Origin: Planctomycetaceae bacterium
Lineage (GTDB): Bacteria > Planctomycetota > Phycisphaerae > SM23-33
Assembly: GCA_021371965.1 (NCBI GenBank)
Contig: JAJFVE010000068.1
Coordinates: 1-36,920, forward strand
Reading direction: 5' to 3'
DNA length: 36,920 bases
Position 1 is the first letter of the stretch. Every line of letters begins with the position of its first letter. Of the stretch, positions 16,850-29,374 are shown one piece after another. Both the position numbers and the translations under genes were made by a program. Under the pieces are notes generated by a model, which ran no database searches, was not told where the DNA came from, and saw only the letters and a list, made by a program, of their open reading frames with translations.

Positions 16850-16885
16850 TTGTTGACCTTATGGTCGTTGTTGACTAAAAAGTCG
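16850..16885 (+). promoter_or_regulatory. TetR promoter with two tandem operator palindromes
   Basis: Two 18-bp direct repeats lie side by side (TTGTTGACCTTATGGTCG and TTGTTGACTAAAAAGTCG). Each has a perfect 12-bp inverted repeat: GACC-TTAT-GGTC and GACT-AAAA-AGTC. A -35 box TTGACC (16853-16858) is 17 bases from TAAAAA (16876-16881), so each palindrome covers one promoter element. The tetR ATG follows at 16913. This is an autorepression layout by inference. Confidence 0.62.
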
Positions 16886-16912
16886 AAATCGGGAGGTTAG
16901 TCGGTCCTGAGT

Positions 16913-17587
16913 ATGATGATTGTTGAAGATGCAAAACCGAAGCGGAGTCCTTCACGCCAGCAGCGGCGCTTGAAGGTCACGCGCCGCAAGCTGCTCGACG
17001 CGGCCCGCACGGTCTTCGCCACGCGGGGGATCGACTTGGCTCGGATCGACGAAATCTCCGACCGCGCGGATGTCGGCAAGGGAACGTTCTACTACCACTT
17101 CAGCGGCAAGCCTCAGCTCGTGCGGGAGTTGATCAAGGAAATGCTCGACGGGCTGATCGCGGCCATCGAGCGCGGCTGCAGCGGCGAGACCGATGTCATC
17201 GGCGTGCTGGACAAGTTGATCGCCGCGCACATCGAGTTCTTCGCCAATCGCTGGGAAGACTTCGTGCTGTACTTCCAGGGCCGCAGCGACCTGACGCTGC
17301 AAGAGGGCTACCAGGGCATCGAGACGCCATTCATCAAGTACCTCGAATGCGTCGAGGGGTTGCTGGCATCGGTGCTGAAGTACCGCCCGCCCCAGCCGGT
17401 GCTGCGGCGGATCGCCTGTGCCGTGGCGGGATTCGTGTCGGGATACTACTCGTTCGCGGCGATCTCGTCGCAGGACGAGAACATTGACGAAACGTTCGTC
17501 TCGTTGCGTGGGGCGATGGCCTCGAGCCTGGCGCGGTTCATCCAGGAAGCCGGCCATCAACAGCCCCCCGAGGCGGCAAAAGGATAA
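16913..17587 (+). CDS. TetR family transcriptional regulator
   Basis: The 224-residue protein has a basic N-terminus, then a TetR helix-turn-helix at about residues 24-70 (TRRKLLDAARTVFATRGIDLARIDEISDRADVGKGTFYYHFSGK) and a helical ligand domain. The GTFYYHF motif is the recognition part. The ligand cannot be read from sequence. Two tandem palindromes that cover the promoter (16850-16885) point to autoregulation. An AT-rich leader and GGAGG at 16892-16896, somewhat far from the ATG, precede it; the second ATG at 16916 is an alternative start. The four following genes are on the same strand with tight spacing for the first three, so TetR probably controls them too. Confidence 0.9.
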   Translation: MMIVEDAKPKRSPSRQQRRLKVTRRKLLDAARTVFATRGIDLARIDEISDRADVGKGTFYYHFSGKPQLVRELIKEMLDGLIAAIERGCSGETDVIGVLDKLIAAHIEFFANRWEDFVLYFQGRSDLTLQEGYQGIETPFIKYLECVEGLLASVLKYRPPQPVLRRIACAVAGFVSGYYSFAAISSQDENIDETFVSLRGAMASSLARFIQEAGHQQPPEAAKG

Positions 17588-17657
17588 CTCGTAGAAAATA
17601 TTTGGCACGGGCGCCGCGGGCATTGTGCCGGCGGCGGTTGGGCCCAGAGGAGAGACA

Positions 17658-18047
17658 ATGAAAACCCAAGAGGCGGTGGAACCTGAGGTCAAGCTATCGG
17701 CGTGGGGTTTGGCCACGAGCATCGACATCTACGACTGCGAGCCGGCGGCCATTCGCGACGCCGAGAAGATCAAGCAGTTCGTGGCCGAGCTCTGCGAGCT
17801 GATCGAGATGAAGCGCTTCGGCGAAACGCTGGTCGTCCACTTCGGAGAAGACGAGCGCGTGGCCGGATATTCGATGGTGCAGCTCATCGAGACCTCGCTG
17901 ATTTCCGCGCACTTTGCCAACCTGACCAACACGGTCTACCTCGACGTGTTCAGCTGCAAAGGGTACGACCCGGAAGTCGTGGCCGAGTTCGCGCAGAAAT
18001 TCTTCGGGGGTTCGCACTGCATTACGCACAGCAACCTGAGGCACTAG
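17658..18047 (+). CDS. speD: S-adenosylmethionine decarboxylase (SpeD)-like pyruvoyl enzyme with altered pocket
   Basis: The 129-residue protein matches class 1b AdoMet decarboxylase. Compared with the Thermotoga maritima enzyme, the self-cleaving serine (S63) is S80, and S55, H68 and C83 are S72, H85 and C100, each shifted by exactly 17 residues. So autocleavage to a pyruvoyl group looks possible. However, the residue before the cleavage serine is T79 instead of Glu, L81 replaces His64, and the TWPE pocket segment is FANL, so W70 and E72 are lost. This suggests a changed substrate. SpeD relatives that became ornithine or arginine decarboxylases are known in bacteria, so that is one option. 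No speE aminopropyltransferase is near. The ATG at 17658 has AGAGGAGAG upstream. It is the first gene after tetR and is tightly followed by the acyltransferase-like gene. Confidence 0.78.
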   Translation: MKTQEAVEPEVKLSAWGLATSIDIYDCEPAAIRDAEKIKQFVAELCELIEMKRFGETLVVHFGEDERVAGYSMVQLIETSLISAHFANLTNTVYLDVFSCKGYDPEVVAEFAQKFFGGSHCITHSNLRH

Positions 18048-18050
18048 AGC

Positions 18051-19016
18051 GTGTATCGGTACCGGGTCATCACGGACCTCGACGCCTGCCGGGACCTCTG
18101 GCAGCGTGCGGTCGTGCAGGAGTCGTTCACTGACCGCTGGGATGTGCGTATGTGCTTCCAGCGGCATTTCCAGCGGGCGCCCCTGTTCATCGCGGCCGAA
18201 GAGGACTCCCTGGTGCGCGGGCTCCTGCCGCTGAGCTGGATCGCCGAGGGCGGCTGCTACGGGTACTTCCCCGGCGAGACCTGGGGCGGCAAGACCTGGC
18301 TCGAGCAGAACCGCCTGATCGCCGGCGACGAGGCGATGCTCGAGGGCCTGCTGGCCCTGTGCCCCGGGCCGCGGCACCTGCGGTATCTGCTGCCCGCCGG
18401 CAACGGCGCCACCGACCGCTGCGAGATCGACGAGATCGGGTATCTCTTCGAGCCGCCGCGATACGGGTACGACATGGAGAACTACTGGGGCGGCGAGTTC
18501 TCGCACAAGTCGGCCAAGCGCATCCGCCGCGAGCTGGACGCCTTCGAGCAGCGCGTCACCTGGCGGCTGGACGACGCGGCCGACTTCGACCGGATGGTCG
18601 AGTTGAACTTGGCTGCCTTCGGCGAGCGGTCGTACTTTGCCGACGGACGGTTCCGCGAGGGCTTCCGCAGCCTGATGGAACTGGCCCGCGCCAACGGCTG
18701 GCTGCGCATGACGGCGCTGCTGGTGGACGGGCAGGCGGCGGCTGTGGACATGGGCATCGTCTACAACAACCACTACACGCTGGTGGCCGGCGGGGCGGAC
18801 CGCTGCGTGCAGGGCGCCGCCAAGCTGATCAACGTGTACCACATGCGCCGCGGCTGCCGCGAGCGGTTCGACCGGCTCGACTTCCTCTGCGGCGACTTCT
18901 CGTGGAAGACCCTCTTCCACCTGACCCCGCGCCCCTTGTACTTGCTGAGCAACATCCCCCACCACGCCGAGCACGCATGCCATGAAGAGTCCAGGAGTGC
19001 AGCGTGTGCTAAATGA
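18051..19016 (+). CDS. FemAB/GNAT-like (Acetyltransf_6 type) transferase
   Basis: The 321-residue protein starts with GTG three bases after the SpeD-like stop, so translation is likely coupled. It resembles the two-GNAT-lobe FemAB/BioF2-like group (often called peptidoglycan-biosynthesis GNAT proteins): an N-terminal lobe with PLFIAAEEDSLVRGLLPLSWI and GYFPGETWGGKTW, then a C-terminal lobe with the pattern WLRMTALLVDGQAAAVDMGIVYNNHYTLVAGG and FDRLDFLCGDFSWK. Members transfer acyl or aminoacyl groups to amines. No membrane segment or signal peptide is seen. Donor and acceptor are unknown; in this context the acceptor may be an amine made by one of the two decarboxylases. The 3' end overlaps the next gene. 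Confidence 0.7.
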   Translation: MYRYRVITDLDACRDLWQRAVVQESFTDRWDVRMCFQRHFQRAPLFIAAEEDSLVRGLLPLSWIAEGGCYGYFPGETWGGKTWLEQNRLIAGDEAMLEGLLALCPGPRHLRYLLPAGNGATDRCEIDEIGYLFEPPRYGYDMENYWGGEFSHKSAKRIRRELDAFEQRVTWRLDDAADFDRMVELNLAAFGERSYFADGRFREGFRSLMELARANGWLRMTALLVDGQAAAVDMGIVYNNHYTLVAGGADRCVQGAAKLINVYHMRRGCRERFDRLDFLCGDFSWKTLFHLTPRPLYLLSNIPHHAEHACHEESRSAACAK

Positions 19017-20340
19017 CTGCGTCCTGGTGGCCGGCACCACGACGGACTACGTCGATATCATCCGCCAGCAGTTGGGGGACCGCGCGATCTTCCTGACCAA
19101 CTTCGCCCACCGCGCCGCCGCTACCGAACCTGCGCCGCCGCCTGGGCAGGAACTGCTAGCCGATCTATCTCTGCCACACGAGCAGCTCCTGGCGCTGGTG
19201 ACGGCGCACGCGGCGCGGTTCAAACACAACATCGTCGGCGTGGCGTGCTTTGACGACGAATCGATGGCCTTGGCCTCGTCGCTGGCCAAGGCGATGAACT
19301 TGCCGTATCCATCCGCGGCGGCGGTGGCGGCGTGCCGCAGCAAGCTGGCGTGCAAGCAGGCCTGGAGCGCAGCGGGATTGCCCACGCCGGCGGCCCGCCT
19401 GGTGCGCACGGCCGCCGATGCGGCGGACTTCATGCACGCGGTCGCCGGAGCGGCCGTGCTCAAGCCACTCACCGGCAGCGGCAGCGAACTGATCTTCTTC
19501 TGCCGCAGCGCCGCCGAGGCCGCCGACGCCCTGGCGACCATCACGGCCCGCCTGGCCACTCATCACGACGCCCGCATGTACGGCGCGGGGGCAGCCGGCG
19601 GCGCCATGGTCGACTCGCGCAGCGTGGCCGTCATCGAGGAGTTCGTCCAAGGCCCGGAATATAGCTGCGACTTCGTGATCGAAGGCGGCCGCGCGCGGAT
19701 CATCCGCCTGGCGCGCAAGATCATGGACCACTCTCAAACGCTCGGGACATGCACGGCGTACATCGTGCCGGCCCCGCCGCCGGATCTGTCGCTGGACGCC
19801 TTTACGGGGCAATTGGCCGCCGCCTGCCGCGCCGTCGGCATAGAGCGGTCGATCTGTATGCTGGACTTCATCGTGCGTGACGGCCGCGCCGTCATGATCG
19901 AGATCGCCCCGCGGCCCGGCGGCGACTGTCTGCCCCCGCTGCTCAAGGCCTGCTGCGGGATGGACATGCTCGCCAGCGCAGTGAACTTCGCCGCCGGCGA
20001 GCCGGTCCTCGTGCCCCCGTCGACGGCGTGGAAGCAGATGGTCGGCCTGCGACTCTTCGCAAAGCGCAGCGGCGTGATCCAGCGCCTGGACGCCTCGGCC
20101 ATCAGCGCCGACCCGCGCGTCAGCGAAGTCTATCTCCGGCGAGCCCCCGGCCACGAAGTGCGCCTCCCCCCCGCCGACTACGACTCTCGCCTGCTGGGCC
20201 ATGTCATCTTTGACCCCTCGGTTTCGGGTGGCATGGCGACACGCCAAGCGGGTCGCCATGATGTCCCCAGCATCGAGCAACAATGCACCGAACTGTCCGG
20301 GCGATTCATCGTTGAATATGGGGGTGGAATTTCAAGATGA
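19006..20340 (+). CDS. ATP-grasp ligase
   Basis: I prefer the GTG at 19006, with AGGAG eight bases upstream and an 11-base overlap with the previous gene; ATG 18982 is an alternative. The 444-residue product has the ATP-grasp order: an N-terminal Rossmann-like part (VLVAGTTTDYVDIIR), lid and ATP part (AAVLKPLTGSGSELIFF), a metal/phosphate segment VIEEFVQGPEYSCDFVIEGG and MIEIAPRPGGD, then a C-terminal domain. Relatives form amide or thioester bonds with ATP, often on amino acids or small peptides, as in carbamoyl-phosphate-like and BtrJ-type ligases. No ACP is seen nearby. Residues about 407-419 come from a family K palindrome near the end. The context suggests it joins an amino acid to an amine. 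Confidence 0.82.
   Translation: MLNDCVLVAGTTTDYVDIIRQQLGDRAIFLTNFAHRAAATEPAPPPGQELLADLSLPHEQLLALVTAHAARFKHNIVGVACFDDESMALASSLAKAMNLPYPSAAAVAACRSKLACKQAWSAAGLPTPAARLVRTAADAADFMHAVAGAAVLKPLTGSGSELIFFCRSAAEAADALATITARLATHHDARMYGAGAAGGAMVDSRSVAVIEEFVQGPEYSCDFVIEGGRARIIRLARKIMDHSQTLGTCTAYIVPAPPPDLSLDAFTGQLAAACRAVGIERSICMLDFIVRDGRAVMIEIAPRPGGDCLPPLLKACCGMDMLASAVNFAAGEPVLVPPSTAWKQMVGLRLFAKRSGVIQRLDASAISADPRVSEVYLRRAPGHEVRLPPADYDSRLLGHVIFDPSVSGGMATRQAGRHDVPSIEQQCTELSGRFIVEYGGGISR
20226..20260. repeat. Family K palindrome inside the ATP-grasp gene
   Basis: CATGGCGACACGC pairs with GCGGGTCGCCATG, with a short CAA between. It is read as GMATRQAGRHD. The same unit, less perfect, is at 1544-1590 between genes. 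Confidence 0.75.
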
Positions 20341-20374
20341 GCGTTCCTTTATTATCCTTGGCAACTTTGCCGAT

Positions 20375-20594
20375 GCGGCCCGAAGGGGCCGCTTGGGATT
20401 TAGCCGGGGGCGCAGCGGCGGCGTTTCTGCCGCCGCGCAGCCCCCGGATAGCTCTTTTGAATTACCCGCCCCATAGGGGCGGGCGGGTTGTTGCATATCC
20501 GCAAAGCCCGTCGCCCCTGCGGGGCTCAGATCGTTTTAATATCGCATTCCGGGGGCTGCGCCCCCGGCTAAATTCTCATCGCCCCTTCGGGGCG
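20375..20594. repeat. Inverted-repeat element of about 220 bp (family I)
   Basis: TTTAGCCGGGGGCGCAGC at 20399-20416 is matched exactly by its inverse GCTGCGCCCCCGGCTAAA at 20555-20572. Outside these lie GCGGCC-CGAAGG-GGCCGC on the left and CGCCCCTTCGGGGCG on the right. A large internal hairpin (GCGGCGGC / GCCGCCGC) is at about 20412-20440. It fills the gap between the ATP-grasp stop and the decarboxylase start and has no open frame. It looks like a non-autonomous element or a hairpin-rich repeat. Confidence 0.7.
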
Positions 20595-20623
20595 AGTAGT
20601 AGCCTTCACTGGACGTTTCTGCC

Positions 20624-21931
20624 ATGCATGACGCCGACGCCATCTTGAAATCTGCCGCTGAGTTGCTCGCCCAGCCGACGCCGCAACTGGACACCGGCGA
20701 GCTGCATGCGTTTGTCGAGGGCTTCATGAACCGCCGCGGACAGTTCCTCGATCTGGCGGGCCGACATGGCAGTCCGCTGTACGTGCTCGATCGCCCGGCA
20801 CTGCGGGCGGCGGCACGCGAGTTTGTCGCGACCTTCGGCAAGCACGTCCAGCAGTTCCGGCCCTATTACGCCGTCAAGAGCAACAACTGCCCGCTGATCG
20901 CCGCGACGCTGGTGGGTGAGGGGATCGGCCTGGATGTATCGAGCGGCATCGAGCTGCAAATGGCCCTGAACGCCGGCAGCAGGGATATCGTCTTCAGCGG
21001 CCCTGGCAAGACCCTGGCCGAGATGCAACTCGCGCTCGATCACGCCGACCGCGTCGTCGTGCTCATCGACAGCTTCGGCGAACTGGCTCGCCTTCAGGCG
21101 GCCGCCGCCGCGGCGGGCGTCACCATCCGTGCCGGCGTGCGACTGACGACGCTCGAGCACGGCCTATGGCGTAAGTTCGGGATCAATCTGTCGCGTCTGG
21201 GCGAGTTCATGACCGCCGCGAAACAGTGCGACCGCGTGCGCCTCTGCGGGCTGCAGTTCCACACAAGCTGGAACCTCGACCCGCAGCGGCAGGTGCAGTT
21301 CATCGCATTGCTGGGCCAGACGCTCGCTGCGCTGGCGCCGCAGCAGCGCGGGCAGATCGAGTTCATCGACATGGGCGGGGGCTTCTGGCCGGGCGCGGGC
21401 GAGTGGCTGCAGGAGGCCGGCACGCCGGCGGGCATGCTGCGGGCGGCCACCACGGCCGGATGGCAGGCATCGCTGACGCACTACCGCATCGCCGCCCAGC
21501 CGCTGGAGGTTTTCGCAGCCGCCATCGCCGAGGCTCAGCAGCAGCACCTGGCGCCGCACCTGAATGCCCGTCTCTGCGCCGAGCCGGGGCGGTGGTTGTG
21601 CCACAACGCCATGCACCTGCTGCTGACGGTGATCGACCGCAAGGCCGACGACCTGGTCATCACCGACGCCGGCGCCAACGCCGTCGGATGGGAGCGGTTC
21701 GAGACGGACTACTTTCCCGTGATCAACTTGACTCGCCCGGCGCTGACCGAGCGGGCATGCATGGTCATGGGGTCACTATGTACGCCCCACGACCTGTGGG
21801 GCTACGGGTACTTCGGCCAGGATATCCTCGAAGGCGACGTACTTCTGGTCCCCACTCAGGGAGCGTATACGTATAGTCTCCGGCAGGAATTCATCAAGCC
21901 CCTGCCGATGGTGACGTGCCTTGAGGAGTGA
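20624..21931 (+). CDS. PLP-dependent fold III decarboxylase (LysA/ornithine decarboxylase type)
   Basis: The 435-residue protein has the fold III decarboxylase pattern: barrel domain with PLP lysine in YYAVKSN (about residue 87), FSGPGKT, QFHTSWN, the PLP phosphate loop MGGGF, and EPGRWL, then the C-terminal beta domain with GSLCTPHDLWGYG, whose cysteine comes across the dimer to the partner's active site. The group includes diaminopimelate, ornithine/arginine and carboxynorspermidine decarboxylases and BtrK, which acts on an acyl-carrier-bound amino acid. The residues visible do not fix the substrate. A 67-residue lead precedes the barrel. It lies 283 bases after the ATP-grasp gene, with a hairpin-rich element between, so it may be transcribed less or independently. 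Confidence 0.85.
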   Translation: MHDADAILKSAAELLAQPTPQLDTGELHAFVEGFMNRRGQFLDLAGRHGSPLYVLDRPALRAAAREFVATFGKHVQQFRPYYAVKSNNCPLIAATLVGEGIGLDVSSGIELQMALNAGSRDIVFSGPGKTLAEMQLALDHADRVVVLIDSFGELARLQAAAAAAGVTIRAGVRLTTLEHGLWRKFGINLSRLGEFMTAAKQCDRVRLCGLQFHTSWNLDPQRQVQFIALLGQTLAALAPQQRGQIEFIDMGGGFWPGAGEWLQEAGTPAGMLRAATTAGWQASLTHYRIAAQPLEVFAAAIAEAQQQHLAPHLNARLCAEPGRWLCHNAMHLLLTVIDRKADDLVITDAGANAVGWERFETDYFPVINLTRPALTERACMVMGSLCTPHDLWGYGYFGQDILEGDVLLVPTQGAYTYSLRQEFIKPLPMVTCLEE

Positions 21932-21951: not shown

Positions 21952-22104
21952 CCGACGACGAGGACGAGGACGAAGAACGGAACGGTGTTCTTTCGTCGAA
22001 CGTTAGCGGCGGAGCTTGCTCCGCGTGTTCTTCAGGAACCGTACAACCCGTCGAGCAAGCTCGGCCGCTGACAGAACGAAACTGATCGAGTCGTCGTCGG
22101 TTTT
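21952..22104. repeat. GACGAGGACGA tract and family A palindrome
   Basis: A GACGACGAGGACGAGGACGA tract (about 21952-21973) is mirrored in part by GTCGTCGTCGG near 22093-22103. Between them is a 71-bp family A repeat (22002-22072: GTTAGCGGCGGAGC, then GAGCAAGCTCGGCCGCTGAC). The 21932-22125 gap holds nothing else. Confidence 0.65.
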
Positions 22105-22125: not shown

Positions 22126-23664
22126 ATGCGTATGCCGACTGAATGGAAAGTACTCCTGGGCAGCGTGGTCCTGGCCGGCTTGCTGGTGGCGGGGCTGGCG
22201 TGGTTGTCGGGGCATGAATCTGTCTCCGGCGACCGGCTGATGTTGTATTGTGCGGCCGGCTCGCAAAAGGCCGTCGCGCCGACTGTCGAACGCTATCGCA
22301 AGGACTACGGCGTGGCGGTCGAGGTGCAGTACGGCGGGTCGGGCACGCTGCTGAGCAGCCTCAAGGCCTCCGGGGCAGGTGACCTGTACCTGGCGGCCGA
22401 CCAGAGCTACATCCAACTCGCCCAGTCGCAGGGCCTTCTGGCCGAGGTGCTGCCGCTGGCGCGCACCATGCCGGTCATCGTCGTGCAGCGCGGCAACACG
22501 TCCGTCACCGGCCTGGACGACCTGCTCAAACCGGCAGTCCGCGTGGCGATGGGCAACCCCAAGGCCGCCTCCATCGGCCGCACGGTGCAGCAGGCCCTGA
22601 CGCCCAGCGGGCAGTGGGCCTTGCTCGATCAGGCCGTGCAGCAGCACGGCGTCTTCAAACCCACCGTGTCCGACATCGCCAACGACGTGGCCATCGGGGC
22701 CGTCGACGCCGGGATCGTCTGGGACTCCACCGTCGCACAGTATGGGCAGCTCAAGGCCGTCCACGTGCCCGCCCTTGATGCGGCCGTGCAGGAAATCTCC
22801 ATCGGCGTGCTGAAGAGCTCTCGGCACCCCACGGCCGCGTTGACGTTCGCGCGATACCTTGCCGCGCGCGACCGCGGGCTGGATCGCTTCAAGGCCGCCG
22901 GCTTCACGCCCGTCGACGGCGATACGTGGGCGGTGCATCCGCGGCTGAAGTTCTATTGCGGGGCGGTGAATCGCCGGGCGGTGGAGGAAGTCGTCAAGGC
23001 CTTCGAGGCCCGCGAGGGCGTGACGGTCGAGACCGTGTACAACGGCTGCGGAACTCTGACGGGGCAGATGAAGTCGATGGGGCCGGCCAGCGCCAACTTT
23101 CCCGACGTGTACATGGCCTGCGACCGGTATTACCTCAACAACGTTCGCGACTGGTTCCAGGAAGACGTGGACATCTCCGACGCCGATATCGTCATCGCCG
23201 TGCCCAAGGGCTCGACGGGCATCAAGGGCCTGGCGGACCTGGCGCGGCCGGGCGTGCGAGTGGCCGTAGGGCAGGGCGAGCAGTGCACTATCGGCGCCCT
23301 GACGCGCATCCTGCTGCAGAAGGAAGGGCTCTACGACGCGGTGATGAAGAACGTGGTGATGCAGACGGCCTCGTCGGCGATGCTCGTGCCGACGGTGACA
23401 ACCAAGTCGGTCGATGCGGCCATCGCGTACCGTACCGATACCCTGGCCGAGCGCGGGCGGATCGACGTCGTCGCCATCGACTCGCCGTATGCCAAGGCGG
23501 TGCAGCCCTTCAGCATCGCCCGCGGCAGCCCGCACAAGCAACTCGCGCGGCGATTCTTCAGCGTCATCGCCGCTGCGCGCGAAAACTTCAAAGCGGCGGG
23601 GTTCAACTTCAGGTACAACGACAAAGACGCCAAGCCGCAAGCGGCGACCGCCCCGAAGGAATAA
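22126..23664 (+). CDS. Tandem double ModA-like substrate-binding protein
   Basis: The 512-residue protein has one N-terminal hydrophobic anchor (residues about 9-27) and no lipobox, then two ModA/extracellular binding protein domains in one chain. Domain 1 spans about residues 37-265 (LYCAAGSQKAVAPTVERY, YGGSGTLLSSL, AADQSYI, GAVDAGIVWDSTV). Domain 2 spans about 270-490 (FYCGAVNRRAVEEVVKAFE, YNGCGTLTGQM, ACDRYYL, DAAIAYRTDTL). Each has the serine/glycine turn motifs that bind tetrahedral oxyanions in molybdate and tungstate proteins. Two fused domains are unusual; normal ModA is about 250 residues. It feeds ModB and ModC encoded next. Molybdate or tungstate is the likely ligand by family. Confidence 0.85.
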   Translation: MRMPTEWKVLLGSVVLAGLLVAGLAWLSGHESVSGDRLMLYCAAGSQKAVAPTVERYRKDYGVAVEVQYGGSGTLLSSLKASGAGDLYLAADQSYIQLAQSQGLLAEVLPLARTMPVIVVQRGNTSVTGLDDLLKPAVRVAMGNPKAASIGRTVQQALTPSGQWALLDQAVQQHGVFKPTVSDIANDVAIGAVDAGIVWDSTVAQYGQLKAVHVPALDAAVQEISIGVLKSSRHPTAALTFARYLAARDRGLDRFKAAGFTPVDGDTWAVHPRLKFYCGAVNRRAVEEVVKAFEAREGVTVETVYNGCGTLTGQMKSMGPASANFPDVYMACDRYYLNNVRDWFQEDVDISDADIVIAVPKGSTGIKGLADLARPGVRVAVGQGEQCTIGALTRILLQKEGLYDAVMKNVVMQTASSAMLVPTVTTKSVDAAIAYRTDTLAERGRIDVVAIDSPYAKAVQPFSIARGSPHKQLARRFFSVIAAARENFKAAGFNFRYNDKDAKPQAATAPKE

Positions 23665-25731: not shown

Positions 25732-27723
25732 CTAAGACTGCTTGCGCCGGGGATCCGGCGTCGGGGCCGCGGGCTGGCCGATGGCGGCGCGGATGCGGTC
25801 GGCTTCGGCAGACTTGCCGACGTCCTGGAGCAGCGTCGCCAGGCGCTTGCCGATCTTTACGTAGGCGGTCTGGTTCAGGAAGACCATTGCCGCACGGTCG
25901 GGCTTCTTGGTCTTGGCGAACATGTCGGCATAGAGGCGGATGGCCACGTCGAGCTTGCGCGCGTCGCGGAGGATGTTCTCGGCCTTGGTAGCGGCATCAT
26001 ATCCCAGATCGCCGCGGTTGAGCCCGTAGTTGGCGGCCTGACCGTAGAGGGTCAGCGCGGCGGCCTTGTTGCCGGCCTTGTCCTGCTCGTCGCCCATGGC
26101 GATGACGATGCGGCACTGCAGATCGGGCCGGGCCGCCCACAGCGCCAAGGCGCGGCGGTACAGCCCCTGGCGGTCTTTTTCGTTTTCGTACGTCGGGATC
26201 AGCCGCATCACGATCTCGTAGGCGTAGTCGGGATACGCCGCCGCGGTCGCGCGCGTGAGATAGTTGATGAACTCGTTAACGTCCTTGTCGGACATCAGCT
26301 TCTGCTGGCGCAGGTAGATGACACGCTGCCAGGCGAGATGGTGGGCGAGGTTCAAGTCCAGAGCCGTCGTCAGCAGCTCGACGGCCATCTCGGCGTCGAG
26401 TTCCCGCCGCGGCGCCGCCCAGTCGGTAGAGGCCTTGAGCGGGGCGTGGCCCTTGGCCGCGACGGCGGCGGTGTAGTCCTGGGCGAGGGTCTTGAGGATT
26501 TCCACATCGCCGCGCGCAGCGGCATCGACCACCAGCCGCGCCGTTGCGGCCGCGGCGTCGGCCTGCTCGCGCCGCTCCAGGGGCAGTTGGGCGATCTGCC
26601 CGGTGAGCATCAGGGTCGAGTCCAGTTCTTCCTTGCCGTCGACGGGGCTGTTGAGATAGCCCACATCATATTGCTGGACGGCATAGCGGCCGGTCTGGCA
26701 GTCCCACTGCCCGCGCCCGCCGGCGACCTTGAGATAACCCACCCAGGCGTGGCCCATGCCCGTGGAGCCGGCGCCATGGATCACCGTGGCGGGAATCCCC
26801 AGCGTCTTGCAGATTTCCGCGGCATAGTACGCCTGGTCGACGCAGATGCCCCCGACCTTGCGCAGATTGGGCAGCGTGTACGGCAGCGACTCGATCTTGC
26901 GCGGAACGCCCTGGGCATACGCCTCGGTGTCGTACTTAAGATCGAAGTACGCCTTGGCCGGAACGGGATGGCTGCCGTAGTTGCGCAGCACCCACTGCCG
27001 CTCCTCCAGGCTCAGGCGGCTGTCGACGACGTGCTGCAGCAACTCGAAGGGGCACGCCCGCATATCGACGCGGAAGCTGCCCCCGCGCGTGTAGAAGCGG
27101 AACACCTCCAGCGCCGTGGCCTGGACCCGATCGCCCTTACCGCCCGAGCGCCGCGGCGGCTGCGCCGTCACCAGCGCCACCGTCAGGTCGGGGTACTCCA
27201 GGACCTTCTTTTCCTCGGCCGCCACGAGCTGACCGAGCAGCTTGAGCGGCTCGCCGCCGCGCCGCGTGGCGCTGGTGGCGCGAAACAGCACGCGCGCAAA
27301 CGCCTCGTGCTTGAGCAGCCACGCAGCCAGGGCCTTGCGCGGCATGCCCTTGGCAGCCGCCTCATCGCCGCCGGCCTCGGTGTAGCCATCGAGCCCCTGC
27401 GCCGCCCGGGCCAGGAAGACCATCTCGGCCAGCGTGGCAGTCTTGTCGATCTTGCCGCACCGCAGGCGAGCCAGCAGGATGTCCTCCATCTTTTCGGCGA
27501 GCTTGTCGTAGTTGTCGGCGTCGACCGCCGCCTGGAACTGGGCCCGCATGGCCGGCAGGAGCCAGGAGTCCTGGATAGGCACGAGCCTGGGTTTGGGCCC
27601 AGCCGAAACAGCCTTCTTAACCCCCGGCTGCACCGCATCGCCTCGCGGTACGACGCCTTGGCCCGTGGCCGAATACGTCAACAGCCCCATTAGCAAAAGA
27701 CACGTTGCAACGTTGAATCTCAT
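25732..27723 (-). CDS. Exported transglutaminase-like protein with helical repeats
   Basis: The ATG at 27723 gives 663 residues with a signal peptide (MRFNVATCLLLMGLLTYSATG). A transglutaminase-like cysteine-protease fold spans about residues 275-345: GGICVDQAYYAAEIC has the catalytic C294, GHAWVGYL has H325 and WDCQTGRY has D341. The C-terminal half is helical and TPR-like (about 400-640). The family includes peptide hydrolases, transferases and inactive members; the intact triad points to activity, perhaps on cell-surface proteins, but the substrate is unknown. The esterase-TPR gene lies 43 bases upstream on the same strand, and both are exported, so they may work together. Confidence 0.8.
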   Translation of the reverse strand: MRFNVATCLLLMGLLTYSATGQGVVPRGDAVQPGVKKAVSAGPKPRLVPIQDSWLLPAMRAQFQAAVDADNYDKLAEKMEDILLARLRCGKIDKTATLAEMVFLARAAQGLDGYTEAGGDEAAAKGMPRKALAAWLLKHEAFARVLFRATSATRRGGEPLKLLGQLVAAEEKKVLEYPDLTVALVTAQPPRRSGGKGDRVQATALEVFRFYTRGGSFRVDMRACPFELLQHVVDSRLSLEERQWVLRNYGSHPVPAKAYFDLKYDTEAYAQGVPRKIESLPYTLPNLRKVGGICVDQAYYAAEICKTLGIPATVIHGAGSTGMGHAWVGYLKVAGGRGQWDCQTGRYAVQQYDVGYLNSPVDGKEELDSTLMLTGQIAQLPLERREQADAAAATARLVVDAAARGDVEILKTLAQDYTAAVAAKGHAPLKASTDWAAPRRELDAEMAVELLTTALDLNLAHHLAWQRVIYLRQQKLMSDKDVNEFINYLTRATAAAYPDYAYEIVMRLIPTYENEKDRQGLYRRALALWAARPDLQCRIVIAMGDEQDKAGNKAAALTLYGQAANYGLNRGDLGYDAATKAENILRDARKLDVAIRLYADMFAKTKKPDRAAMVFLNQTAYVKIGKRLATLLQDVGKSAEADRIRAAIGQPAAPTPDPRRKQS

Positions 27724-27766
27724 AGCGTCCTCACGATCCAATCTCCCATTGCCGCCGCGGCAAGGG

Positions 27767-29293
27767 TCACTGTCCGTCAAGCTGGGCCAGGCGTTCGCGG
27801 GCTCTTTTGGCCCAGGGGGTCTGGCCGTGCGTCTCGATGACGTTGCGCAGACACTCGCGGGCCTTATCGGTCTTGCCGGCGCCGACGTAGCTCTCGGCCA
27901 ACTGCAAATTGCGTTTACAGAAGTGCTCGGCCTCCCCCTTGTTGACCTTGGCCGTCACGGCCGGGTCTTCCTTGAGGGTCTTGAGGTGGTCGGTCACTTC
28001 CTGGAAGCGTGTGGCCTGTGGGTAGTCCTTGACGTAGCGTTCGTACAGCGGCAGGGCGGCGGCGTAGTCCCCCCGCTCTTCGGCCTTTTTGGCCTGGGCT
28101 TCGAGGGCGTCGGCCTTGGCGTTCACCGCGTCGCGATTCATCTGCGCCTCGGCGTCGGGGTCGGCCTTGATCTCATCGAGTCGCTTCTGGGCCTGCTTTC
28201 CGAACTCGCAGCCCTGGTATCGCATGGCCAACACCTTGAGCAGGCCCGAGCCCTTGGGAAAATCCTTCTCGGCCAGCGCCTTGTCGGCCAGAGCCAGTTG
28301 AGCTTTGGCCTGATCGGCCAGCGCCGCGGCGCCCTTGGCGGCCGCCAGAGCGTCGCGGTTCGTCGAGGAGATCGCCGCCAGCGTCTGGTAGAGCAGATAG
28401 GCCTTGCCCTGCTTGCCGCCGCGTTCGAGCTTGCGTGCGGCGCCTAAGTCCTCATTGAGCGTCTGCAACGGCCCGGCCTCGAGCAGCCACTTGCCCAGTT
28501 GGGTCTTGTCGTAGTCGATCTCGATGCCCGAGGCCCACTTCTCCAGGCGCACCCGCGCGCCAAGCTTGAGGTAGCATTCGGCGGCGTCCTGGGCGACTGG
28601 GAGCATGGCCGCGTCTTCGGCGCCAACGCCCACAAAGACGCACTTGCCTCGCACCAGCTCGGCCGGCGGAGGATTGCCGCCGTTGAGGTAGAACCGCCCG
28701 CCCGACAGCAGCACCAGTCCTGCCACGTTGCCCATGAGCTTCTCGCCGATGGCCGTGGCGGCGAACCCGCCCATGCTGTAGCCGCCCAGGAAGATCAGCT
28801 TGGGCGAAAGCTCGACCTCTTTGCCCAGCGCCTGCCAGGCCTCGCGGAAGGCGTCGACCTCGCCGCCGACGCCGGCCGGCGAGGGCGAGGCGTAGAACGC
28901 CTTGCTGGCGTAGTTCATGCCGACGATGACGAACCCCTTGCCGCCGGTGACTTTCAGGAACGGCTCGACGTTGGCGAACTGCCACTTGTCGCTCTGGTAC
29001 CGCGCGTGATAGTTGAAGATGACCGGCCAGCGCCGCTCGGGGATGTAGTCGGTGGGCACGTAGACGATCATCGAGCCCTTGACGCCCGGCAGAGGCACCT
29101 GCGTCTGCATCCCCGGCGAGAACCTGAGCTTGGCCGGGGCGTTCTTGTCGTCGGGCTCCTTCACGACCTGATCGATCGTCTTGGTCTGGTCCTTGGACGC
29201 ATCCTTGGGAGGATTATCAGCCGAGGCGGCCGCCGCGCCCGCGACCACCACCAAGACCATCACCCTGGCCAAAAATGCCCAACGCCATCGCAT
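27767..29293 (-). CDS. Exported alpha/beta-hydrolase (esterase-like) with TPR-like C-terminus
   Basis: The ATG at 29293 gives 508 residues and has AGAGGTG upstream. A signal peptide (about residues 1-26, ending AASA) is followed by an alpha/beta-hydrolase of the feruloyl/acetyl-esterase or phospholipase type: PVIFNYHARYQSDKWQFANVE, then the nucleophile elbow GYSMGG with S173. The C-terminal half (about 285-505) is helical with TPR-like units (YAAALPLYERYVKDYP; SYVGAGKTDKARECLRNVI). The protein is exported and may bind or cleave an ester in surface polymers. The transglutaminase-like gene lies just downstream. Substrate unknown. Confidence 0.8.
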   Translation of the reverse strand: MRWRWAFLARVMVLVVVAGAAAASADNPPKDASKDQTKTIDQVVKEPDDKNAPAKLRFSPGMQTQVPLPGVKGSMIVYVPTDYIPERRWPVIFNYHARYQSDKWQFANVEPFLKVTGGKGFVIVGMNYASKAFYASPSPAGVGGEVDAFREAWQALGKEVELSPKLIFLGGYSMGGFAATAIGEKLMGNVAGLVLLSGGRFYLNGGNPPPAELVRGKCVFVGVGAEDAAMLPVAQDAAECYLKLGARVRLEKWASGIEIDYDKTQLGKWLLEAGPLQTLNEDLGAARKLERGGKQGKAYLLYQTLAAISSTNRDALAAAKGAAALADQAKAQLALADKALAEKDFPKGSGLLKVLAMRYQGCEFGKQAQKRLDEIKADPDAEAQMNRDAVNAKADALEAQAKKAEERGDYAAALPLYERYVKDYPQATRFQEVTDHLKTLKEDPAVTAKVNKGEAEHFCKRNLQLAESYVGAGKTDKARECLRNVIETHGQTPWAKRARERLAQLDGQ

Positions 29294-29374
29294 CAATTGT
29301 CACCTCTGTTGGCGAAAGAGTATTTTCTCCCCCGGCGCCCGCTGTTTCAATCGCTGATTTGCGATTTTGGCCTG

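Follow-up and report, generated by a model that had tools for sequence, protein, structure and literature searches.

Which product is made where a SpeD-like pyruvoyl decarboxylase, a transferase of the FemAB/GNAT kind, an ATP-grasp ligase and a pyridoxal phosphate (PLP) decarboxylase are encoded side by side behind a tetR gene is the question raised by contig JAJFVE010000068.1 of a Planctomycetaceae bacterium, analysed here as one stretch of 36,920 nucleotides (the window). A preliminary description of this DNA had reported a five-gene cluster on a single strand, and all five open reading frames (ORFs) lie where it had placed them, with Pfam matches that agree with the families it named (Table 1). 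Its account of the second to fourth genes as three bases apart or overlapping is likewise borne out, the SpeD and transferase genes being separated by 3 bases and the transferase and ligase genes overlapping by 35, and a gap of 283 bases precedes the decarboxylase gene. The four enzyme genes recur together in many bacterial phyla, and we see about an even chance that they form a dedicated biosynthetic operon, free of non-ribosomal peptide synthetases (NRPS), for a putrescine-containing amide joined to amino-acid units.

Conservation and co-inheritance of the enzyme genes

A collection of species genomes was scanned with the transferase alignment alone, which gave 147 confirmed places, and in the best 80, kept as loci, the window proteins were compared by tblastn and counted. 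Loci short of flank were dropped, at least 500 bases being needed upstream for SpeD (77 loci), at least 3.8 kb downstream for the ligase and the decarboxylase (63 loci) and both for the complete set (61 loci). All four enzyme genes are present in conserved order and strand in 54 of the 61 loci testable on both sides. SpeD lies immediately 5′ of the transferase in 74 of 77 loci, with L028, L059 and L070 as exceptions, and the ligase and decarboxylase follow on its 3′ side in 57 of 63, being absent or partial in L010, L052, L059, L068, L070 and L073. The locus titles span Planctomycetota, Zixibacteria, Deltaproteobacteria/Desulfobacterales, Armatimonadota, Omnitrophota, Deferribacteraceae, Nitrospirae, Verrucomicrobia, Lentisphaerae and Eisenbacteria, among others. 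Desulfoluna butyratoxydans, Desulfospira joergensenii, Desulfogranum marinum and Dethiosulfatarculus sandiegensis are among the hosts, and the presence of the four genes in named species makes their function directly testable.

Because the 80 loci had been picked by their transferase, a second test was made on evenly drawn genomes. The transferase occurs in 11 of 297 genomes sampled evenly across the phylum to which locus L080 (Desulfoluna) belongs, and two of the 11 (G025, the centre genome, and G005) were hits already known. The decarboxylase (E ≤ 1e-80) occurs in the identical 11 genomes and adjoins the transferase in 10; in G452 the two genes lie on two contigs, with the transferase close to a contig end. 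A SpeD protein of the SpeDC class described below (E ≤ 1e-20) was found in 14 of the 297 genomes, including 10 of the 11 with the transferase, which it adjoins in those 10. Of 294 genomes of the planctomycete phylum, that of locus L042, 3 have the transferase, the centre genome included. These counts of co-occurrence and adjacency in the sampled phyla reveal an operon that is sporadic, yet whose parts are inherited together. The preliminary description had proposed that its cluster reading would fall if homologous genes were not neighbours in relatives; they are neighbours, and the planctomycete frame in which it had set this check proved too narrow.

Departures from the complete arrangement are few. 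The transferase ORF of L028 (9896-10951), in a locus that holds masked bases, starts by eye with SpeDC-like N-terminal residues, which suggests that speD was lost there by in-frame deletion. In L059, L070 and L073 the transferase lacks an adjoining ligase or decarboxylase despite sufficient downstream sequence; in the genomes of these loci the two genes lie side by side elsewhere (G616, G618) or on two contigs (G619, with a partial decarboxylase match). In L056 and L064 the available sequence stops close to the transferase, G615 has the ligase-decarboxylase pair on another contig, and in G617, where the pair starts at a contig edge, the split may be a contig break only. From these few cases there are hints of two modules, SpeDC with the transferase and the ligase with the decarboxylase. 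The genome of L052 has neither a ligase nor a decarboxylase match.

Predicted activities and the proposed pathway

In the pathway proposed here, L-ornithine would be converted to putrescine by the SpeDC enzyme, and a Fem-type transferase would join an amino acid from aminoacyl-tRNA to the amine, most simply putrescine. The ATP-grasp ligase would attach another amino acid by an amide linkage, and the PLP decarboxylase would remove the alpha-carboxylate of the conjugated residue, so that the product ends in an omega-amino acyl or diamine group. With a conjugated substrate the decarboxylase would resemble two of its solved relatives: FslC decarboxylates citryl-ornithine in the rhizoferrin pathway and BtrK is a decarboxylase of glutamate bound to an acyl carrier protein (ACP). 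An order in which the ligase and decarboxylase act first and the transferase last would fit equally well. Control would be exerted by TetR here and by a sigma-54 activator in other lineages. What the sequence analysis establishes is the gene content, its conserved order, co-inheritance, the SpeDC signature, the fold classes and the operator-like and promoter-like sites; it is the substrates, the product, the use of tRNA, the order of the last three steps and the ligand of TetR that we infer. The amide of decarboxylated amino acids sensed by TetR, as modelled in the preliminary description, is likewise a prediction.

The first step is suggested by a residue signature. The catalytic residues of the Thermotoga maritima enzyme are Ser63, His68 and Cys83, and Gln, Thr, Phe and Tyr residues are diagnostic of SpeDC ornithine decarboxylases, according to the available part of Li et al. 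2023 (PMC10407285). The window SpeD displays S80 at the cleavage site, H85 and C100, together with the diagnostic Q75, T79, F86 and Y94, the latter four matched to the published ones by order and not by exact alignment columns. Its Ser-His and His-Cys offsets of +5 and +15 follow the class 1b SpeD spacing and are those of the canonical-looking N-terminal domain of a fusion protein in L062. The same seven residues are found in 77 of 77 SpeD ORFs (75 by pattern, 2 by eye), and against the equivalog of canonical S-adenosylmethionine (AdoMet) decarboxylases, TIGR03330, the window protein scores 27.7 bits, below the cut-off of 75.65. With these markers the protein should be a pyruvoyl ornithine decarboxylase of the SpeDC class, with putrescine as the expected product, so the SpeD-like family given in the preliminary description holds and is narrowed to this class. 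The likeness to SpeDC lies in the Ser/His/Cys spacing and in the order of the four diagnostic residues; in contrast to the present operon, SpeDC genes in the available part of PMC10407285 are paired with spermidine or homospermidine genes, and the terms GNAT, ligase and ATP-grasp are absent from the text of that paper. Li et al. also showed the second domain of a SpeD-SpeD fusion from Desulfotignum to be an active ornithine decarboxylase, and the window SpeD shares 63% identity with the second domain of the fusion in L062. No solved relatives of the window SpeD were found by phmmer at 0.001 or by profile at 0.01, and its phage relatives, 7 records that are all from Sinorhizobium phages at 34% identity, are uninformative on class.

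Related genes also stand close to the operon at other loci. In L062 (4006-5800) the SpeD-SpeDC fusion gene and a spermidine synthase gene, identified by Pfam, adjoin the operon on the opposite strand, and a similar pair, likewise on the opposite strand, was recognised by clustering in L051 (2679-4473). L030 (16341-16754) holds an extra SpeDC copy outside the operon, 71% identical to the window protein.

The transferase has no match by sequence in the PDB at E ≤ 1. The tandem GNAT fold of its AlphaFold2 model (pLDDT 85) is closest to FemX/FemA, with Foldseek and VIA matches to Sba18/FemX, and VIA places FemX, Sba18, Sbb17 and FemA as the closest solved structures, with the tandem GNATs that depend on coenzyme A (CoA) behind them at 14.8 and below. 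The enzyme is thus predicted from its model to be Fem-type and aminoacyl-tRNA-dependent, which sharpens the FemAB/GNAT-like label given to it earlier. Identity to the Fem-type aminoacyl-tRNA-dependent enzymes FemX and Sba18/Sbb17 (the latter with streptothrisamine) is 8-14%, and unlike these the window core operon has no peptidoglycan or streptothricin context. The CoA-binding motif of GNATs is Q/R-x-x-G-x-G/A; in the 74 transferases parsed of 81, Q/R occupies the first position in 8 and is missing in 66, and G-x-A/S is kept. It is unlikely that the transferase instead uses acyl-CoA or acyl-ACP, giving an N-acylated putrescine or fatty amide that the ligase and decarboxylase would modify. The VIA ranking and the missing Q/R argue against such a route, which draws support from the Pfam family Acetyltransf_6, the retained G-x-A/S of the CoA loop, the fourth rank of the CoA-dependent VipF in Foldseek and, in L056, L059, L070 and L073, a large ORF resembling polyunsaturated fatty acid synthases (by eye) about 4-6 kb upstream of the transferase.

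For the aminoacyl-putrescine route the third enzyme would have to form a further amide bond, and the ligase model is closest to an L-amino-acid ligase, with a fold like BL00235/BacD. Fold and profile are alike in the window ligase and in the ATP-grasp L-amino-acid ligases BL00235, BacD and RizA; unlike them, the window ligase stays below the LAL_C2 cut-off of Pfam (21.5 against 29.4 bits) and below every NCBIfam cut-off.

The decarboxylase holds the motif GSLCTPHD, and its nearest solved relatives by profile are FslC, a diaminopimelate decarboxylase, BtrK and 6knh (SbnH), in this order. Fold III is common to FslC, BtrK, SbnH and the window enzyme; C-T-P-x-D recurs in BtrK and 6knh, with LCTP-x-D common to BtrK and the window enzyme, and FslC has C-M-Q-H-D. 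In contrast to these relatives, the window decarboxylase contains the family-specific stretches GWERFETDYFP and SLRQxFIKP and remains under all NCBIfam cut-offs, scoring 144.9 bits for diaminopimelate decarboxylase (TIGR01048, cut-off 297.9), 75.4 for the N-citrylornithine decarboxylase FslC (NF041039, cut-off 500) and 98.9 for the exosortase-linked relative TIGR03099 (cut-off 478). NspC (TIGR01047) is not among its NCBIfam matches at 0.01, and the operon decarboxylases listed for the hosts reach at most 31.5 bits against the TIGR01047 cut-off of 409. The analogy with BtrJ and BtrK of butirosin synthesis drawn in the preliminary description fits this profile, even if FslC stands nearer than BtrK among the solved relatives. 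A full butirosin-type pathway, in which the ligase would load an ACP, the decarboxylase would act on the thioester and the transferase would off-load the acyl group to putrescine, is rather improbable: BtrK, the shared LCTP-x-D and the TIGR03099 match speak for it, but the conserved core has no carrier gene among ORFs of at least 80 aa, the neighbours being annotated in part, and its genes are packed in most loci, as judged by the first possible start.

Whether the operon simply serves polyamine housekeeping was assessed in 25 host genomes, counting AdoMet_dc matches above 100 bits (the operon SpeD gives 70-84 bits) and NspC at its cut-off. Non-operon AdoMet_dc matches above this threshold occur in 13 hosts and NspC in 11, with both in one, so that a spermidine-route gene (strong SpeD or NspC) is found elsewhere in 23 of 25, the exceptions being G004 and G007. 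Spermine_synth matches occur in 19 hosts, many in long fused frames, and a further fold-III decarboxylase match in 24 (all but G004), many probably lysA. Because 23 hosts have another spermidine-route gene, the operon looks dedicated, housekeeping was rejected as the main reading, and the cluster reading withstood its second check, separate housekeeping roles for the enzymes. That SpeDC feeds spermidine synthesis beside unrelated neighbours is very improbable, given also the close linkage of the four genes and the sampled frequency of the transferase (3/294 and 11/297 genomes); in its favour, SpeDC occurs in normal polyamine clusters of other bacteria (PMC10407285, available part), and in G615, G616 and G619 a frame of 309-327 aa with a SpeDC-type match, probably a SpeD-SpeDC fusion, is found at a distance of about 2-5 kb from the ligase.

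Least probable of all is a siderophore or metallophore pathway resembling that of rhizoferrin, suggested by FslC as best solved relative of the decarboxylase and opposed by the low score against the FslC model and by a conserved core that, with neighbours annotated in part and no Fur-site search made, has no NRPS-independent siderophore (NIS) synthetase, receptor or iron transporter. Anti-phage defence was discarded, none of the five proteins having a PADLOC match at 0.001.

Several observations weigh against a dedicated operon for a putrescine-containing amide. VipF, fourth in Foldseek, lies close to FemX, and the outcome of the CoA-motif test is mixed. In the ligase comparison RizA (28.5), 4dim (28.3) and PurK-type carboxylases (28.0) all tie with BacD behind 3vot, so that the second-ranked ligases are level with PurK-type enzymes; similarly, a diaminopimelate decarboxylase ranks between FslC and BtrK. 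The window decarboxylase gene stands 283 bases from the ligase gene, compared with at most 30 in 57 of 60 loci by the first possible start. Two of the splits between the modules (L056, L064) rest on contig ends. The genome of L068 carries SpeDC, the transferase and the decarboxylase, the latter with a stop inside the match, and has no ligase match. No SpeDC match at 1e-10 was found in G478, G618 or G007 (the G007 locus is L028, with its remnant and masked bases), and these genomes may draw on another source for the amine or use a different one. Finally, in-frame stops interrupt the transferase match of G452 and the decarboxylase matches of G478, G377, G616 and G023.

A more specific form of the proposal can be put forward only tentatively. 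The operon may define a new tRNA-dependent, NRPS-free class in which an aminoacyl-putrescine is capped by a decarboxylated (omega-amino) residue, made in scattered members of many phyla and switched on by either of two unrelated kinds of regulation; where a RimK-type ligase and a C39-like peptidase are neighbours of the operon, as in some lineages, they may couple this compound to peptides or free it from them. If the proposal is true, the operon would encode a compact and widespread route that cluster finders keyed to NRPS, polyketide synthase or NIS cores may miss, SpeDC would have a role beyond general polyamine synthesis that was not found described in the literature searched, a Fem-type transferase would work on a small amine, and a new metabolite would be made under tight regulation in anaerobes and uncultured lineages. 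The same unstudied pathway would recur in many bacterial phyla under two types of control.

The literature searched, available in part, gave no recognised description of this gene set; its scope did not extend to the amidoligase survey published by the Aravind group in 2009. In the available part of PMC11237479, PSP-linked AdoMet decarboxylase operons with a glutathionylspermidine-synthetase-like ATP-grasp enzyme are another gene set, as are those in the available parts of PMC2922099 and PMC9992855, and none of six terms looked for occurs in PMC12945691. The E-64 pathway (PMC12568646, available part) is alike in being NRPS-independent with an ATP-grasp enzyme and differs in being fungal.

Regulation and genomic surroundings

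Two operator-like palindromes precede tetR in the window (Table 1). Sites of the form TTGAC-N6-GTCAA were found before tetR in 19 of 31 regions with at most one mismatch (0.28 in shuffles) and in 28 of 31 with at most two (2.82 in shuffles), the window's being included in both counts, and 16 of the 31 regions have two such sites exactly 18 bp apart, counted by hand. These counts are partly circular, because the pattern had been picked from k-mers of the same regions. In the control regions before speD of the tetR loci, none of 31 has a site at one mismatch and 2 have one at two mismatches (1.3 in shuffles). With tandem palindromes before tetR and none before speD at one mismatch, tetR and the enzyme genes probably form one self-repressed transcription unit in the window's lineage, which supports the self-regulation by TetR proposed earlier.

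Upstream regulators differ between loci. Of 69 loci with enough flank, 29 have TetR, 36 an ORF of one large cluster, one both and five neither, and the one scanned member of the large cluster (L059) is a sigma-54 activator. A −24/−12 site with at most two mismatches to the consensus occurs in 25 of 34 regions of the sigma-54 set against about 0.85 in shuffles, compared with 1 of 31 in the TetR set against 1.25. The TTGAC-N6-GTCAA pattern occurs in the sigma-54 loci in 0 of 34 regions at one mismatch and in 4 of 34 at two (3.5 in shuffles). Judged by sequence, TetR is dispensable to the system, and many of the other loci carry sigma-54-type regulator and promoter sequences in its place.

Table 1. 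Positions of the cluster genes and associated elements in the window
Feature	Position	Strand	Match or remark
Distal operator-like palindrome TTGACC-TTAT-GGTCGT before tetR	16853..16868	.	Second copy 18 bp downstream
Proximal operator-like palindrome TTGACTAAAAAGTCGA before tetR	16871..16886	.	Sole 0-mismatch TTGACN6GTCRA site in the 36.9-kb window
tetR, TetR-family regulator, first gene of the probable unit	16913..17587	+	Pfam PF00440 TetR_N 2.1e-14
SpeDC-type pyruvoyl decarboxylase (predicted L-ornithine to putrescine)	17658..18047	+	Pfam AdoMet_dc 1.3e-22
Fem-type transferase with double GNAT fold, predicted to form an amide from aminoacyl-tRNA	18051..19016	+	PF13480 Acetyltransf_6 7.5e-21
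ATP-grasp ligase, L-amino-acid ligase type	18982..20340	+	Pfam ATP-grasp_4 5.8e-12
Fold-III PLP decarboxylase (predicted substrate: a conjugated amino acid)	20624..21931	+	PF02784/PF00278; Orn_Arg_deC_N 2.2e-26
Terminator-like hairpin past the last gene	22009..22024	+	Weak: 1 found against a shuffle mean of 3.5

The best start of the SpeD-like gene is the ATG at 17658, preceded by GAGGAGA, the upstream GTG at 17625 being disfavoured. For the SpeD protein the nearest relative is 95% identical and for the transferase 94%, both being labelled as a Planctomycetaceae metagenome-assembled genome. The gap 5′ of the decarboxylase gene (20341-20623) contains short GC-rich hairpins, with three exact copies of GCCCC-N3-GGGGC and one near match, and could represent either an inserted repeat element or an attenuator; hairpins of this type number 10 in the whole window against 5.9, which is not significantly many.

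Apart from the core genes and both families of regulators, no family of ORFs of at least 80 aa, annotated in part, recurs in more than 15 of the 81 clustered sequences. Nine loci (L010, L014, L016, L018, L027, L028, L036, L049 and L068) have a C39-like peptidase in the vicinity of the operon, in some of them together with a RimK-type ligase; five of these peptidases were scanned with Pfam, and that of L010 is a fragment. A RimK-type ATP-grasp enzyme and the peptidase lie downstream of the operon in L018 (14294-16587), L027, L036 and L068 (14814-17013), the peptidase of L018 being fused to a GNAT domain and the L027 and L036 proteins aligning to it. Separate C39-like peptidases adjoin the operon in L014, L016, L028 and L049. 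This RimK/C39 neighbourhood may serve as a lead.

A search of the window for RNA features found tRNA-Val alone, and the minus strand at 25732-29296 encodes two long ORFs, of 682 and 509 aa, that have no Pfam match at 1e-5. The cluster is preceded by a gene of the PTPS/QueD type, an ORF that by eye resembles QueE, and a phosphatase gene on the opposite strand. Downstream lies an ABC-transporter set with permease and ATPase recognised by eye, in which the binding protein (22126-23664) displays two matched SBP_bac_11 stretches within one chain of 512 aa.

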